Assembly: GCA_016198705.1 (NCBI GenBank)
Contig: JACQIA010000035.1
Coordinates: 1 to 36,900 of the forward strand
DNA: 36,900 nt
From: Candidatus Aenigmatarchaeota archaeon
Lineage (GTDB): Archaea; Aenigmatarchaeota; Aenigmatarchaeia; CG10238-14; SCSR01
Direction: 5' to 3'
Below the pieces are notes generated by a model. That model saw only the letters and a list, made by a program, of their open reading frames with translations. It had not been told where the DNA came from and made no database searches. Every line of letters begins with the position of its first letter. Positions within the stretch are counted from its first letter, which is position 1. Positions 23,263 to 34,200 of this stretch are shown in pieces. Both the position numbers and the translations under genes were made by a program.

Positions 23263-24078
23263 TTAAAGAAGTAAGCGCCCGGAGCGAGTTTGATTAAAAA
23301 TTAAATTAAGTTTATCTAGCTTTTCAGGACTAAGGAATCCTATTTTCTTTGCATACAATCCTTTATCATTTATTACCAAGACATGAGCTCCATTGTAAGG
23401 TCCTAGAATATGAGAATTAATTCCTAATGTCTTTAGAAGAGTTTTGATTTCTTCTAGCCCTCTTTTGTTCATGGATTTCGCAAATATACTCTTTTTAATT
23501 AAGCTTACAGATCCGTCACCATCAAAATATGCTCTCAACCATGCCACTTTTAGCTTAAAATTATCTCCATCCATAATATCTAATGGGACAGACCATTTTC
23601 TACTTCCAAATCTTGAATATCTAATTAAATCATCTATAACTGCTTGAGCATTAATTACTAAATCTGCTACACCATTTTCATATGGTGTGTAACCATAACA
23701 ATCTTCAACACTTTTTATGAAGTCATTTACTAAGATGGAATTTTTATTTGTGAAAAATATTCTATGTTGTTTTACTTTCATTTTATATGCTTTGTTACGT
23801 CTTTTATCGAATTGAAAATATTCATAATTTCCTATAACTTCACACCCTTCGGCTGACAAATAACCTAAAATTTTAGCTTTTGATACGTTTAAATTACTTA
23901 CGTCTTTGTTTATTGTAAAAAGTTTTCTATTTGGGTGAGGAATATCTAATGTATATCTCAAAACAGTCCTATCATTAATATGAATTAACTTCGAAATTTC
24001 ACTTATCTTAAGACCTTTCTTTTTAAGCTTTCTAATTTTTATAATTTCATTATCAGTTAGTTTTTTTCCTCTAGGCAT
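23263..24078 (-). CDS. Free-standing LAGLIDADG homing endonuclease with N-terminal HTH
   Basis: 271 residues. The N-terminus is a helix-turn-helix (LTDNEIIKIRKLKKKGLKISEISKLIHINDRTVLRY, about 8-42) of the resolvase/Sigma-70-like type. Two LAGLIDADG motifs follow: ILGYLSAEG (70-78, acidic E77) and WLRAYFDGDG (180-189, acidic D188). Such enzymes make a monomer with pseudo-twofold symmetry and cut a long asymmetric site. No intron or intein surrounds it, so it is free-standing. It lies 35 nt from the 3' end of tRNA-Asp on the same strand, and its last codons overlap an imperfect copy of that tRNA 3' end. Lys/Asn-rich composition sets it apart from neighbouring housekeeping genes. Confidence 0.87.
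   Translation of the reverse strand: MPRGKKLTDNEIIKIRKLKKKGLKISEISKLIHINDRTVLRYTLDIPHPNRKLFTINKDVSNLNVSKAKILGYLSAEGCEVIGNYEYFQFDKRRNKAYKMKVKQHRIFFTNKNSILVNDFIKSVEDCYGYTPYENGVADLVINAQAVIDDLIRYSRFGSRKWSVPLDIMDGDNFKLKVAWLRAYFDGDGSVSLIKKSIFAKSMNKRGLEEIKTLLKTLGINSHILGPYNGAHVLVINDKGLYAKKIGFLSPEKLDKLNLIFNQTRSGRLLL
23274..23288. repeat. Imperfect copy of tRNA-Asp 3' end (candidate attachment-site remnant)
   Basis: AGCGCCCGGAGCGAG matches AGCGCCTGAAGCGGG at 24112-24126 in 12 of 15 positions. The latter is the acceptor and T-stem 3' strands of tRNA-Asp. Both have the same orientation and lie on opposite sides of the homing endonuclease gene. On the minus strand it reads CTCGCTCCGGGCGCT, resembling the consensus 3' end of archaeal tRNA-Asp (CCGGGCG). 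This could be a displaced tRNA end left by integration, or chance. Confidence 0.3.
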
Positions 24079-24113: not shown

Positions 24114-24221
24114 CGCCTGAAGCGGGATTTTCAGGAATTTAGTTCCATTTGAACCCGCGTCACAAGCGTGACAGGCTAATGCATTTTAATTTTGCATCCT
24201 AGGCCACTAGACGATTCAGGC
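24114..24221 (-). tRNA. tRNA-Asp(GTC) with two introns
   Basis: Acceptor stem GCCTGAA/TTCAGGC with discriminator G (CCA not encoded). The D-arm is GTCT-AGTGGCCTA-GGAT. The anticodon stem CAAGC/GCTTG around CTGTCAC is restored only if 15 nt at 24177-24191 (AATTAAAATGCATTA) are removed between positions 29 and 30. The T-arm GCGGG-TTCAAAT-CCCGC is restored only if about 20 nt at 24128-24147 are removed near position 59/60; that insert contains a GGAA/TTCC hairpin. The mature form is 73 nt. Anticodon GTC and G73 match Asp identity. Exact splice points may shift by a base or two. The 5' end is 10 nt from 5S rRNA, so cotranscription is likely. Confidence 0.88.
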
Positions 24222-24231
24222 ACATAAATGA

Positions 24232-24351
<120 letters not shown>

Positions 24352-24410: not shown

Positions 24411-24547
24411 TCCCCCGAGCCGGATTTGAACCAGCAACCCTTCGCTTACTGTCTGAGCAAGCCCTGGATGACAAACACAATTGTGAATATCTACAGGCGA
24501 ATGCTCTACCAATGCTCTCTCCGAACGGAGATTTGAGCTATCGGGGG
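24411..24547 (-). tRNA. tRNA-Tyr(GTA) with two introns
   Basis: Acceptor CCCCCGA/TCGGGGG with A73. C1:G72 is the archaeal/eukaryal tRNA-Tyr identity pair. The T-arm is GCTGG-TTCAAAT-CCGGC and the variable loop GGGTT. The anticodon stem TTCGC/GCGAA holds loop CTGTAG-A, interrupted after position 37 by a 44-nt intron (24447-24490), the canonical 37/38 site. The D-loop carries about 20 extra nt (24513-24532) containing a TCTCC/GGAGA hairpin; removing them leaves AATTGGTA, a normal D-loop. The mature length is 73 nt. CCA is not encoded. Confidence 0.88.
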
Positions 24548-24585: not shown

Positions 24586-26019
24586 TTAATTGACAGAGAC
24601 AGCCATAGAAACTGCAAATTTCTTTACTCTCTTATGGTCGTAATATCTCATTGTTGCAGAAGGCAGTATCAAACTACCAAGAACATCTACAGTTGGTTTT
24701 ATCCTGTAGTTGATAACTCTCTCCTCGGCAACTTTTAGCGAATCCAACTTCCAGCTCAACTCCGTCCCTTCAGCAGTCTTTCTTATAACAGGCCTTAATG
24801 TGTCGAATCTTTGCACAACTTCAGTCAACTGCGGCACAACATCAGCAACCACGATATCTTTTATTTCACTCAACGCATGGTTTTTAATTTCCAATGTCAC
24901 AACTATTTCCTTGCCTTTAGCCAATACACCATGTTTCTTCACAACCTTTTTTATACTCGGTGTGAAAACAAATTTGAAAGCAAGATATACAATAGTAGTT
25001 ATAACTAGCAACCCAATCCAAACACCCCATAAATTGATCTGGTATTTAACCGTTGCTTCCTGATTGGGAGTTAACGATATCAGCCATTCGTATACCACAG
25101 AATTTCCTATAGAATTTATTGATGTAGGATTAGTTTCTGCAATCACCCAATCTTTAGCAAATGATGGCACGGACTCTTTCAAGAATACTGAAGTAGGAAT
25201 ATTCCCAACATTCTTTACTTTAGTTGTTCTAACAATGGATAAGATTCTGAAATCTTGTGAGACGTCGGATGTAGTTTTATTAACCTCGTCAAGTCTTACG
25301 TCCAATGATTTGGAGCTTATCAAAGTATTTAGATTGTCCTTTAAGTTTACAGATATTGTGTAAATTCCTGGCGGTGCGTATCTGTCAAAAGTGTAACTTT
25401 TTGTTATAGTCTGCGATATTTTTCCTGGTATGTCTGAAACAGTTTCATCAAACTCTTTTATCAATGCATTATCCTTTTTTATCGTTACCAACAACCTGTA
25501 TATGTCGGATGGAATGCTGCGTGTATTGGTTAAAACATTATTTATCTGCAGGGTCTCTTCTGGGCTGAATAAAGATTTGCTTATTCGTAAATCAGACAAA
25601 TAGACAGGGCTAGTTCTCAAGACGTTTATCTGAATAGTTTTATTTAAAGAAATTTTTTCGTTTGCCGACGATGTTATGTACACCCTGAACAATACCGGGG
25701 AAATTGTCTCCTCTGCCTCAGGCAAAACGCTAAAGAACAACTTTACTGTAGCGGTTGATTTGGAAGTTAGCGGGAGATTGGTTGCAATGGTTTCAGGGAA
25801 AGCGCCAATTTTGCTTAGGAAGGAAGGGACTATTGATACCGAAAATACATCATATTTGTCCTGATTGTTTGCTATAGTCAGCTCTACTGCAGAGCTTTCC
25901 CCGCTGTAGATAAACAATTCAGATGCAGATAATGACACTTCTAAAGGTTCTTGAGCTAAAATGGCTGGTGAAAGCAGAAGCATAGCAACTGCAAATGTCA
26001 GAATATATAATTTTTGCAT
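24586..26019 (-). CDS. Secreted/membrane protein with Ig-like domains and a C-terminal segment beyond a TM helix
   Basis: 477 residues. A cleavable signal peptide (hydrophobic 4-21, then AQEP) is followed by beta-rich repeats of the archaeal adhesion/COG1470 kind (about 25-330), including SPEETLQINNVLTNTRSIPSD and APPGIYTISVNLKD. One transmembrane helix, LWGVWIGLLVITTIVYLAFKF (330-350), is followed by a basic stretch (TPSIKKVVKK), so by the positive-inside rule the last 125 residues would be cytoplasmic. Yet they again look like an extracellular-type beta domain (EIVVTLEIKNHALSEIKDIVVADVVPQ). Function unknown. It stands alone downstream of nitroreductase. Confidence 0.72.
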   Translation of the reverse strand: MQKLYILTFAVAMLLLSPAILAQEPLEVSLSASELFIYSGESSAVELTIANNQDKYDVFSVSIVPSFLSKIGAFPETIATNLPLTSKSTATVKLFFSVLPEAEETISPVLFRVYITSSANEKISLNKTIQINVLRTSPVYLSDLRISKSLFSPEETLQINNVLTNTRSIPSDIYRLLVTIKKDNALIKEFDETVSDIPGKISQTITKSYTFDRYAPPGIYTISVNLKDNLNTLISSKSLDVRLDEVNKTTSDVSQDFRILSIVRTTKVKNVGNIPTSVFLKESVPSFAKDWVIAETNPTSINSIGNSVVYEWLISLTPNQEATVKYQINLWGVWIGLLVITTIVYLAFKFVFTPSIKKVVKKHGVLAKGKEIVVTLEIKNHALSEIKDIVVADVVPQLTEVVQRFDTLRPVIRKTAEGTELSWKLDSLKVAEERVINYRIKPTVDVLGSLILPSATMRYYDHKRVKKFAVSMAVSVN

Positions 26020-31137: not shown

Positions 31138-31162
31138 TTTATCAAAATATTCTATTAACTAT

Positions 31163-31260
31163 AGCCCCGTCGTCTAGCGGCCAAGGATACGAAAGAGTGT
31201 ATACGCCTCTGGTCGTATGAGAGATAGCTCGGGACGGCAGTTCGAATCTGCCCGGGGCTA
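31163..31260 (+). tRNA. tRNA-Gln(CTG) with two introns
   Basis: Acceptor AGCCCCG/CGGGGCT with A1:U72 and A73, as usual for archaeal tRNA-Gln. The D-arm is GTCT-AGCGGCCAA-GGAT and the T-arm GGCAG-TTCGAAT-CTGCC. The anticodon stem CGAGC/GCTCG is restored by removing 12 nt (31193-31204, AAGAGTGTATAC) at 29/30 and 13 nt (31213-31225, TCGTATGAGAGAT) at 37/38; the loop is then CTCTGGA with anticodon CTG. The introns contain complementary ATAC(G) and (C)GTAT, so they can pair with each other across the exon. Mature length 73 nt. Its last three bases are also the stop codon of carB on the other strand. CCA is not encoded. Confidence 0.88.
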
Positions 31261-34200
31261 TATTCCTAGACTTATTGGCTTTTCTAATGCACCTGCTAAA
31301 ATCTTCACCAGTTCAGCATTTGTTATAATCGGAACACCAAACTCAACAGCCTTCCTTCTTATCAAATGATCATTTGTAATCTCTTCCTCTTCATAGCTTT
31401 TTGGTATGTTGATGACCAAATCAATTTTACCTCCAGAAATAAAAGTTGAAGCATTCGGTTCCTTTCCATCCAATGGCCAATGAAGTATGGTTGTTTTAAT
31501 TCCATTAGACTCCAAGAATTTCGCAGTACCTTCAGTAGCATATAATTCAAATCCAATCTCAACCAACTTCATCACACTTTCAAGCAAATACATTTTAGTT
31601 TTCATAGGTCCAGTAGACAAAAGTATAGTCTTCTTAGGCAATTTAAATCCAGATGCAATCAATGATTTCAAGAACGCCTCATTAAAATCTTTTCCAAAAC
31701 AAGCCACCTCACCCGTTGATGCCATATCCACACTAGTAACAGGATCAGCTCCCTCCAACCTCATGAAAGAAAATTGCGGAGACTTGACTGCCCATCTTGT
31801 TGGAACAGCTTCACTATCATCAACCTTACTACCTAGAAAAACATTGGCAGCCAACCCCATCAAATTAACACCAACTGTTTTAGAAACAAAAGGCATGCTT
31901 CTGCTAGCCCTAAGATTGCATTCAATCACATAAACATTCCCATTCTTCACCAGATATTGGATATTGAAAGGACCTTTGATTCTCAACTCCTTTGCTATCT
32001 TTCTAGTATAATCGCGAATCTTGGTTTTCACATCTTCACTGATTGTGATGGTTGGAATAGAGATTGTAGCATCCCCTGAATGCACACCAGCTTCTTCAGC
32101 ATGTTCTAAAATGGCTCCAATGAATACATTCTCACCATCACTCACAGCGTCAACTTCCACTTCCCTCGATTCAATGAAAAATTTAGATATCACAACAGGA
32201 TGCTCGCGTGAAACATCAGCTGCAACTTTCAAATAATTTTCCAATTCATGTTCGTCATTGACTACCTGCATTGCAGAGCCTGACAAAACATAAGACGGGC
32301 GAATCAAAACAGGATATCCGATTTCTTGTGCAAATCTCTTTGCATTTTCCAAGTTTTCCAACCTGCTCCATATAGGCTGTGGTATTTTTAATTCATCAAG
32401 TATCGCGCTGAATTTAGCCCTGTCCTCCGATCTGTCTATATTTTCTGCAGACGTTCCAAGTATTTTAATTCCATTATCCACAAGTTTCAAAGCAACATTG
32501 TTTGGTATCTGCCCGCCTACGCTAACAACAACGCCATCAACATTTTCCTTTTCTGCTATGTCCAAAACCCTTTCTAATGTCAACTCCTCGAAATAAAGTT
32601 TGTCTAAGATGTCATAATCGGTTGAAACGGTTTCCGGGTTATAGTTTATCATTATAACTTCACCAACACCTTTGTCCTTTAGCGCCCAAGCCATGTTCAC
32701 ACAACACCAGTCAAACTCAACGCTGCTTCCAATCCTGTAGCATCCTGAGCCAAGAACTATGATTTTATTCTTTCGTTGGAAGTCTATGTCGTCTGCATTT
32801 CCATGATAAGTTAGGTAAAGGTAATTGGTAACCGCAGGCCATTCTGCCGCTAAAGTGTCTATCTGTTTTGCCACCGGAATTATTCCAAAAGATTTCCTCA
32901 AGCGTCTTATTTCATCTTCGCTCTTCCCAACCAATTTCCCTATTTTTTTATCAGAAAATCCCAACTGCTTTGCTTCCTTCAATAAATTTGGCAATAATTC
33001 TGAATTTCTTAATTTGTTCTCAAAGCCAACAATATTTTTTATTTTGTACAAAAACCACTCGTCTATACCACTCAACATATGGATTTCATCTATGGCCATC
33101 CCAACTTGCAGCGCCTTTACAACATAAAAAATTCTTTTGTCAGTTGGAAATTCCAATTCATATCTTATCTTTTCCAAATCAGGTCTGATATCATCAACAT
33201 CTGTCAATTCCTTTCCAATATCAAGCATCCTGACAGCTTTTTGTATTGTCTCTTCGAAAGTTCTTCCTATTGCCATCACTTCTCCAACAGATTTCATTTG
33301 TGTCCCTATTCGTCTGCTAACGTTCTTGAATTTCTGGAAATCCCATCTCGGAATTTTAATTGTAATATAATCCAACGCTGGTTCAAAGCAAGCAGTGGTA
33401 ACGCCTGTGACTTTGTTAACTAATTCTGGTAAAGTGTAGCCTGCAGCTAGCTTCGCAGCAATGTACGCAATTGGATATCCGGTTGCTTTGCTAGCTAATG
33501 CAGAACTTCTCGACAGTCTTGAGTTGACTTCTATCACACGATATTCTTCTTTGTCAGGATGAACAGCAAATTGTATGTTGGATTCCCCAACAATTCCTAA
33601 TGCGCGGATAACTTTAAAACTCAACATCCTCAATTCATGATATTCCCTGTTTGTTAAAGTTTGCGATGGAGCTACAACAATGCTTTCACCAGTATGAACT
33701 CCCATAGGATCCCAGTTTTCCATATTACAAACTATTGTGCAGTTATCAGCCGAATCTCGCATCACTTCATATTCAATCTCCTTCCATTTCCCAACATATT
33801 CTTCAATCAAAATTTGGTTTATTCTGCTGTACGCTAAACCACGGGCTGCTATTTCTGTTAATTCCTTGAAATTGTAAGCCACACCTGAACCCTGACCTCC
33901 TAAAGTGTAAGCAACTCTTATCATCACAGGATAGCCGATTTCTTTCGCAGCCTCTAGCGCTTCGTCAATCGAATTAGCCTTCTTACTTTTTGGTATAGGT
34001 ATATCGTTTTTAACCATCAGCTTTCTAAATTCATCCCTGTTATCACAAGTTTCAATTGCAAAAATTCCTGTCCCTAAAACTTCCACATTGTATTTTTCTA
34101 GAATTCCTTTTTCATATAATTCCATTCCAGCATTCAGTGCAGTCTGCCCGCCGAAGCTTAATAAAATCCCATCAGGTCTTTCCTTTTCTATAACTTTTTC

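Follow-up and report, generated by a model that had tools for sequence, protein, structure and literature searches.

A twice-interrupted tRNA-Asp gene in an Aenigmatarchaeota genome whose only recognized splicing endonuclease lacks the catalytic lysine

A tRNA-Asp(GTC) gene interrupted in both its anticodon stem and its T-loop raises the question of whether it is a working gene whose transcript is spliced and, if so, which enzymes would splice it. The gene occupies positions 24114-24221 (minus strand) of the window, the whole 36,900-nucleotide stretch of DNA analysed here, which is contig C90 of a 1.08 Mb Candidatus Aenigmatarchaeota genome (G000). It spans 108 nt with its introns and 73 nt when spliced. 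Read along the minus strand, exon 1 (24192-24221, 30 nt, up to position 29) is followed by intron 1 (24177-24191, 15 nt, at position 29/30 in the anticodon stem), exon 2 (24148-24176, 29 nt, positions 30-59, with the anticodon GTC at 24170-24172), intron 2 (24128-24147, 20 nt, at position 59/60 in the T-loop) and exon 3 (24114-24127, 14 nt, positions 60-73). The initial annotation had given the same coordinates exactly, with no mention of the strand, and its two introns of 15 nt at 29/30 and about 20 nt at 59/60, the removal of which leaves a 73-nt tRNA, were borne out in size, site and product.

The spliced molecule forms a complete cloverleaf with the invariant bases and the anticodon loop CTGTCAC. 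Pairing is Watson-Crick throughout the acceptor, anticodon and T stems, in line with the earlier description of all stems as perfect; that description does not extend to the D stem, in which two of the four pairs are G-U (score 3.2 of 4). When the acceptor was kept and the remainder shuffled by dinucleotides, none of 400 sequences scored 20 or more, the best reaching 13.4 compared to 32.0 for the real gene.

Both introns are enclosed by a complete hBHBh' motif with a 4-bp central helix and two 3-nt bulges. Intron 1 has the central helix AUGC/GCAU with four outer and two inner pairs, and intron 2 has the central helix UUCA/UGAA, an outer helix that is the T stem itself (four pairs counted) and an inner helix, GGAA/UUCC, of four pairs. 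In 2000 trials in which the introns alone were shuffled and the exons kept, a strict motif arose 33 times at intron 1 and 25 times at intron 2, and at both in a single trial. Since these motifs had not figured in the initial annotation, they provide an independent test of its intron reading. From the cloverleaf and BHB motifs, together with the lack of a second copy found and the comparison with relatives given below, we regard the twice-interrupted gene as very probably functional and spliced, and not as a pseudogene.

We propose that the transcript folds into the two BHB motifs, that the sole EndA found in the genome would cut both bulges of each motif to release the 15-nt and 20-nt introns, and that an RtcB-type ligase would then join the three exons into the 73-nt tRNA. 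Because the T stem serves as the outer helix of intron 2, its cleavage would be compatible with a folded T arm and could take place after that arm has formed. Intron 1, in contrast, pairs with bases of the D arm and anticodon loop, so that its BHB is in competition with the mature cloverleaf; this motif would have to arise ahead of the cloverleaf or in its place, and cleavage probably precedes formation of the anticodon arm. For this gene we infer transcription, cleavage, ligation, the order of events and the identity of the lysine-less EndA described below as the enzyme. That the genome has this one functional tRNA-Asp gene, its introns freed from BHB motifs by EndA and its three exons joined by an RtcB-type ligase, is in our assessment most probably correct. 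The splicing components encoded in the genome are one EndA gene and one rtcB gene, which is itself interrupted.

The initial annotation had anticipated a heterotetrameric or three-unit endonuclease, and the genome search instead returned one short, single-subunit EndA. Each EndA domain family (PF02778 and PF01974) had one match, both in a single open frame of 197 aa encoding a protein of about 188 aa that aligns with solved EndA structures over an N-terminal and a catalytic domain. With one PF01974 match in the genome, no gene for a second, structural subunit of the (alpha beta)2 type was found, nor was the fusion of about 390-400 aa that forms a three-unit epsilon2 EndA found in this genome or in its own family. 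Exactly one PF01974 match, a single short EndA, was present in 15 of the 16 genomes of the family (none in the other) and in 10 of the 12 genomes of family f2 (none in two). Frames with two catalytic-type matches (246-425 aa, mostly about 400) occurred only in other families of the order. Two f5 genomes (G033 and G034; loci L049 and L058) carry both a three-unit EndA and a short lysine-less one, reflecting either contamination or true coexistence.

The single EndA retains Tyr118 and His134, and its triad is incomplete, the catalytic Lys, at a position that we take to be Lys156 in the M. jannaschii EndA numbering, being replaced by Ala165. Ala, Thr or Ser occupies this site in all 28 short EndAs examined in the order, a count from a family search that was independent of any pattern at the Lys site and in which 30 of 40 match rows were fetched as loci, and Lys is present in both three-unit proteins checked. 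Among 80 named EndA loci, 70 lacked the Lys and 10 had it, which is not a frequency since the scan pattern itself specified [AT] at that site; the named loci related to this EndA came mostly from Candidatus Aenigmatarchaeota and then from Nanohaloarchaea. An AlphaFold monomer model (pLDDT 84) had M. jannaschii EndA (1a79) as its best structural match. The loop between Tyr and His has 15 residues compared to 9 in M. jannaschii and contains Lys129, invariant in 14 aligned sequences, and we propose that this residue would replace the catalytic Lys.

We also considered whether the enlarged Tyr-His loop might be the Crenarchaea-specific loop and rejected this identification, since the published loop, as described in the available part of PMC12397907, is N-terminal of the catalytic Tyr. 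By sequence alignment alone, the EndA has GKPQPEETPDR at the site of that loop and lacks the second basic residue of Lys-(Pro/Val)-(Lys/Arg), and by the same alignment most f2 EndAs have no extra residues there.

The absence of the Lys is a point against the spliced-gene explanation, because the sole EndA found lacks the very residue whose substitution by Ala is reported to abolish cleavage by the ARMAN-2 enzyme (PMC12397907). It lends weight to an alternative in which the introns are real and the cutting is done by another endonuclease, either absent from the assembly or so diverged that it escapes recognition, with the lysine-less EndA acting as a subunit of structural or altered function; according to PMC6379350, each of the four known EndA types conserves the Tyr/His/Lys triad. 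This would require, however, that the second gene be missing or too diverged in all genomes of the own family and of f2, and the EndA at hand keeps the Tyr, the His and the fold. We therefore regard a second endonuclease as unlikely. Tentatively, and with somewhat less than even confidence, we propose that Aenigmatarchaeota of this family have a fifth kind of EndA, formed by one short subunit that lacks both the Lys and the typical Crenarchaea/ARMAN loop and perhaps uses Lys129. Such an enzyme would remove many relaxed introns, up to four per tRNA, as well as introns of the rtcB mRNA, so that the ligase would be needed to make the ligase, in a self-limiting loop.

A second point against a spliced tRNA-Asp is that the sole rtcB match of the genome (L223, C18:1186-2529, minus strand) is broken by a TAG in frame, unless its own transcript is spliced. 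The TAG stems from 30 inserted nucleotides that separate MPDGH from SGYGFPIGG; in other genomes of the family this motif is uninterrupted. At the same place rtcB of two relatives, G019 (L311) and G021 (L313), has 32-nt inserts that shift the frame, and the inner helices of these inserts differ from that of G000 by paired changes. The motif at this first site is relaxed, with three central pairs and, by the rule used, no outer pairs, and 9, 5 and 2 of 2000 shuffles were as good. A second insert in the G019 gene (31 nt) has a full BHB that none of 2000 shuffles equalled, and in G025 a second rtcB copy (L314) is interrupted twice, by 16 nt and by 13 nt, with BHB motifs that were equalled by 0 and 19 of 2000 shuffles, respectively. 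Removing the inserts restored the open frame in each case over the stretch examined. The inserts may reflect damaged genes or assembly errors; their motifs and the regained frames point to the reading that they are probably mRNA introns, located in the splicing pathway's own ligase. In the available parts of PMC7714728 and PMC2738675 the archaeal mRNA introns named are those of cbf5 and one Haloferax 5' UTR, further ones being predicted in PMC2738675, and our search of the open-access literature, made mostly by listing, found no case of an rtcB mRNA intron. If confirmed, the rtcB introns would be archaeal mRNA introns beyond the cbf5 and Haloferax 5' UTR cases, located within the splicing ligase. 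Separately, rtcB of G022 (L312 and L315, C2:140925-143642) forms a single 960-aa frame in which two RtcB parts are separated by about 1.4 kb that may represent an intein.

Introns are abundant in the other tRNA genes of the genome. A partial census of 38 parsed tRNA genes counted 43 introns, of which 23 lie at positions other than 37/38; the census was based on the T arm, to which other tRNAs interrupted in the T-loop are invisible, and it leaves out an unparsed tRNA-Trp-like gene (L027), an unparsed Ala gene (L011) and the unreached Thr genes (L004, L005) and odd L038. Outside tRNA-Asp and the initiator tRNA-Met, 20 of 37 introns have a central helix of four pairs flanked by two or more outer pairs and at least one inner pair, and the rest are more relaxed. 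L038 (C67) is a Cys-like gene with poor D and anticodon stems, L004 (C55) is an odd Thr(TGT) gene with the T-loop TTAAAAT, and either may lie on a contaminating contig. A tRNA-Ile(TAT) gene (L044, C1) has three introns, and a tRNA-Phe(GAA) gene (L036, C20) with introns at 9/10 and 26/27 is located just upstream of the EndA gene.

The most heavily interrupted gene in the census is the initiator tRNA-Met (L045, C1, about 25745-25908, minus strand), for which four introns, at 10/11, 29/30, 37/38 and 43/44, were parsed. Because the score alone is weak, with 1 of 150 shuffles as good and thus not far beyond chance, this parse is based on homology: of 75 positions in the joined exons, 64 match the G024 gene, which has no introns, and 68 match the G027 gene once spliced. 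As supported by homology, this gene would exceed by one the maximum of three introns per tRNA gene given in the available part of PMC8450103, where Thermoproteales are given 0.84 introns per gene on average, against an overall mean of 0.21.

Within the window, the upstream neighbour of tRNA-Asp is a tRNA-Tyr(GTA) gene (24411-24547, minus strand) that has two introns, one of 21 nt in the D-loop (24512-24532) and one of 44 nt at 37/38 (24447-24490), and between the two tRNA genes lies a 5S rRNA gene (24233-24349, minus strand, 85 bits). A 31-nt match, 90% identical to part of the 5S rRNA region, occurs on another contig of 3.3 kb (L033, C93:377-407). Directly downstream of tRNA-Asp is an apparently free-standing LAGLIDADG homing-endonuclease-like ORF of 271 aa (23263-24078, minus strand). 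On the plus strand, a tRNA-Gln(CTG) gene (31163-31260) has introns at 29/30 (31193-31204) and 37/38 (31213-31225); ARAGORN had called a tRNA-Tyr(ATA) at 31162-31261, which we rejected in favour of this two-intron parse.

A tRNA-Asp gene could be located and parsed in 30 of the order's 36 genomes; none was found in G009, G018, G019, G025, G032 and G035. At least one intron was present in 19 of the 30 parsed genes. Within the own family, 13 of 16 genomes yielded the gene, which is intron-free in six (G015, G016, G017, G024, G027 and G028), and the G000 exons align without gaps with intron-free genes of family relatives, five of the six being included in the alignment. The 29/30 intron occurs in G000, G022, G023 and G029, and the genes of G022 and G026 have three introns each; other sites, given approximately, are in the D arm (G026, G007, G008 and G010) and at 27/28 (G020). 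Consistent with the expectation of the initial annotation that T-loop introns are rare, the 59/60 intron was found in just two of the 30 parsed tRNA-Asp genes, those of G000 and G026 (16 nt, full BHB, in the latter), with a further 59/60 intron in the initiator tRNA-Met of G016. Given such varied sites among relatives, the positions of tRNA-Asp introns turn over quickly, and the T-loop site is recurrent but rare.

These comparisons bear on whether the gene works at all. ARAGORN did not call a tRNA-Asp at 24114-24221, and Rfam had no tRNA-Asp there, whether the gathering score or E<=1 was applied, results that could be taken to favour a decayed pseudogene with two insertions and a functional gene elsewhere, all the more so as the assembly is unfinished (102 contigs, 96.8% complete) and a further gene could be missing from it. 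However, a covariance model of the spliced tRNA had its best match in the genome at these same coordinates (67.8 bits), followed by a locus that parses as tRNA-His (62.1 bits); since the uninterrupted tRNA-Asp genes of relatives scored 74-94 bits with this model, an intact second copy would have shown up. A pattern running from the anticodon loop to the T-loop matched once in the genome and not at all in the reversed control, and no second tRNA-Asp was found among the parsed members of the 42 tRNA-family matches in the genome, leaving the intact second gene that the initial annotation had named as refuting its reading unobserved here. With no mispairs at stem positions of the exons and a full BHB around both inserts, a pseudogene is highly improbable. 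That the inserts stay in a mature tRNA with enlarged arms is scarcely credible: although intron 2 by itself is predicted to fold as a hairpin within the T arm of the unspliced strand, insert 1 destroys the anticodon stem, relatives' inserts at the same sites vary in sequence and length, and both inserts are absent in six relatives. The preferred reading, a spliced working gene, implies that standard tRNA finders can overlook essential genes in genomes such as this one.

T-loop introns are known in archaea (PMC6379350), and this gene adds one lineage to the short list of those having them. The lineage hint drawn earlier from the T-loop intron was right in pointing to a small-genome archaeon, the genome being 1.08 Mb. 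Aenigmatarchaeota, a DPANN lineage, belong to neither the Thermoproteales nor the ARMAN group; an assignment to Micrarchaeota/ARMAN, which the style of the introns had suggested, was rejected because the named EndA loci point to Aenigmatarchaeota. As a gene, this tRNA-Asp belongs to a familiar kind; more of the interest lies in the machinery that would splice it.

In their introns the tRNA genes of G000 resemble those of the unrelated Thermoproteales, where short BHB introns likewise occupy both canonical and non-canonical positions, several to a gene; Pyrobaculum calidifontis, for example, is reported to have 71 introns in 46 tRNA genes (PMC8450103). Intron-rich Crenarchaeota, however, have an (alpha beta)2 EndA with a Crenarchaea-specific loop, as described in PMC6379350 and PMC4090602, whereas G000 has a single short EndA lacking the Lys. 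ARMAN-1 and -2 (Micrarchaeum) share with G000 an ultrasmall archaeal host and non-canonical introns, and their tRNA introns are accompanied by a three-unit epsilon2 EndA (PMC6379350, PMC12397907), a form that the own family of G000 lacks even though it is found in other families of the same order. The enzyme of Methanocaldococcus jannaschii, an alpha4 EndA, is alike in form, with one gene, an N-terminal and a catalytic domain, a length of about 180-190 aa and the best structural match, but it differs in that the G000 protein has Ala for the catalytic Lys and an invariant Lys in a Tyr-His loop of 15 rather than 9 residues, and in that the tRNAs of G000 are full of non-canonical introns.

According to the available part of PMC6379350, relaxed motifs are removed efficiently only by (alpha beta)2 and epsilon2 EndAs, and species with alpha4 or alpha2 EndAs are described in PMC4090602 as having mostly few, canonical introns, with one exception named among alpha2 EndAs in the available part of PMC4033280. 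As judged from its sequence, G000 goes against both the statement that the Tyr/His/Lys triad is conserved and the statement that a single-type alpha4 or alpha2 EndA is associated with few, canonical introns. The lysine-less EndA thus makes it testable whether the lysine is truly catalytic and what gives EndA a broad specificity. Taken together, the tRNA-Asp gene and the single EndA lacking the Lys are a variant of a known splicing system.
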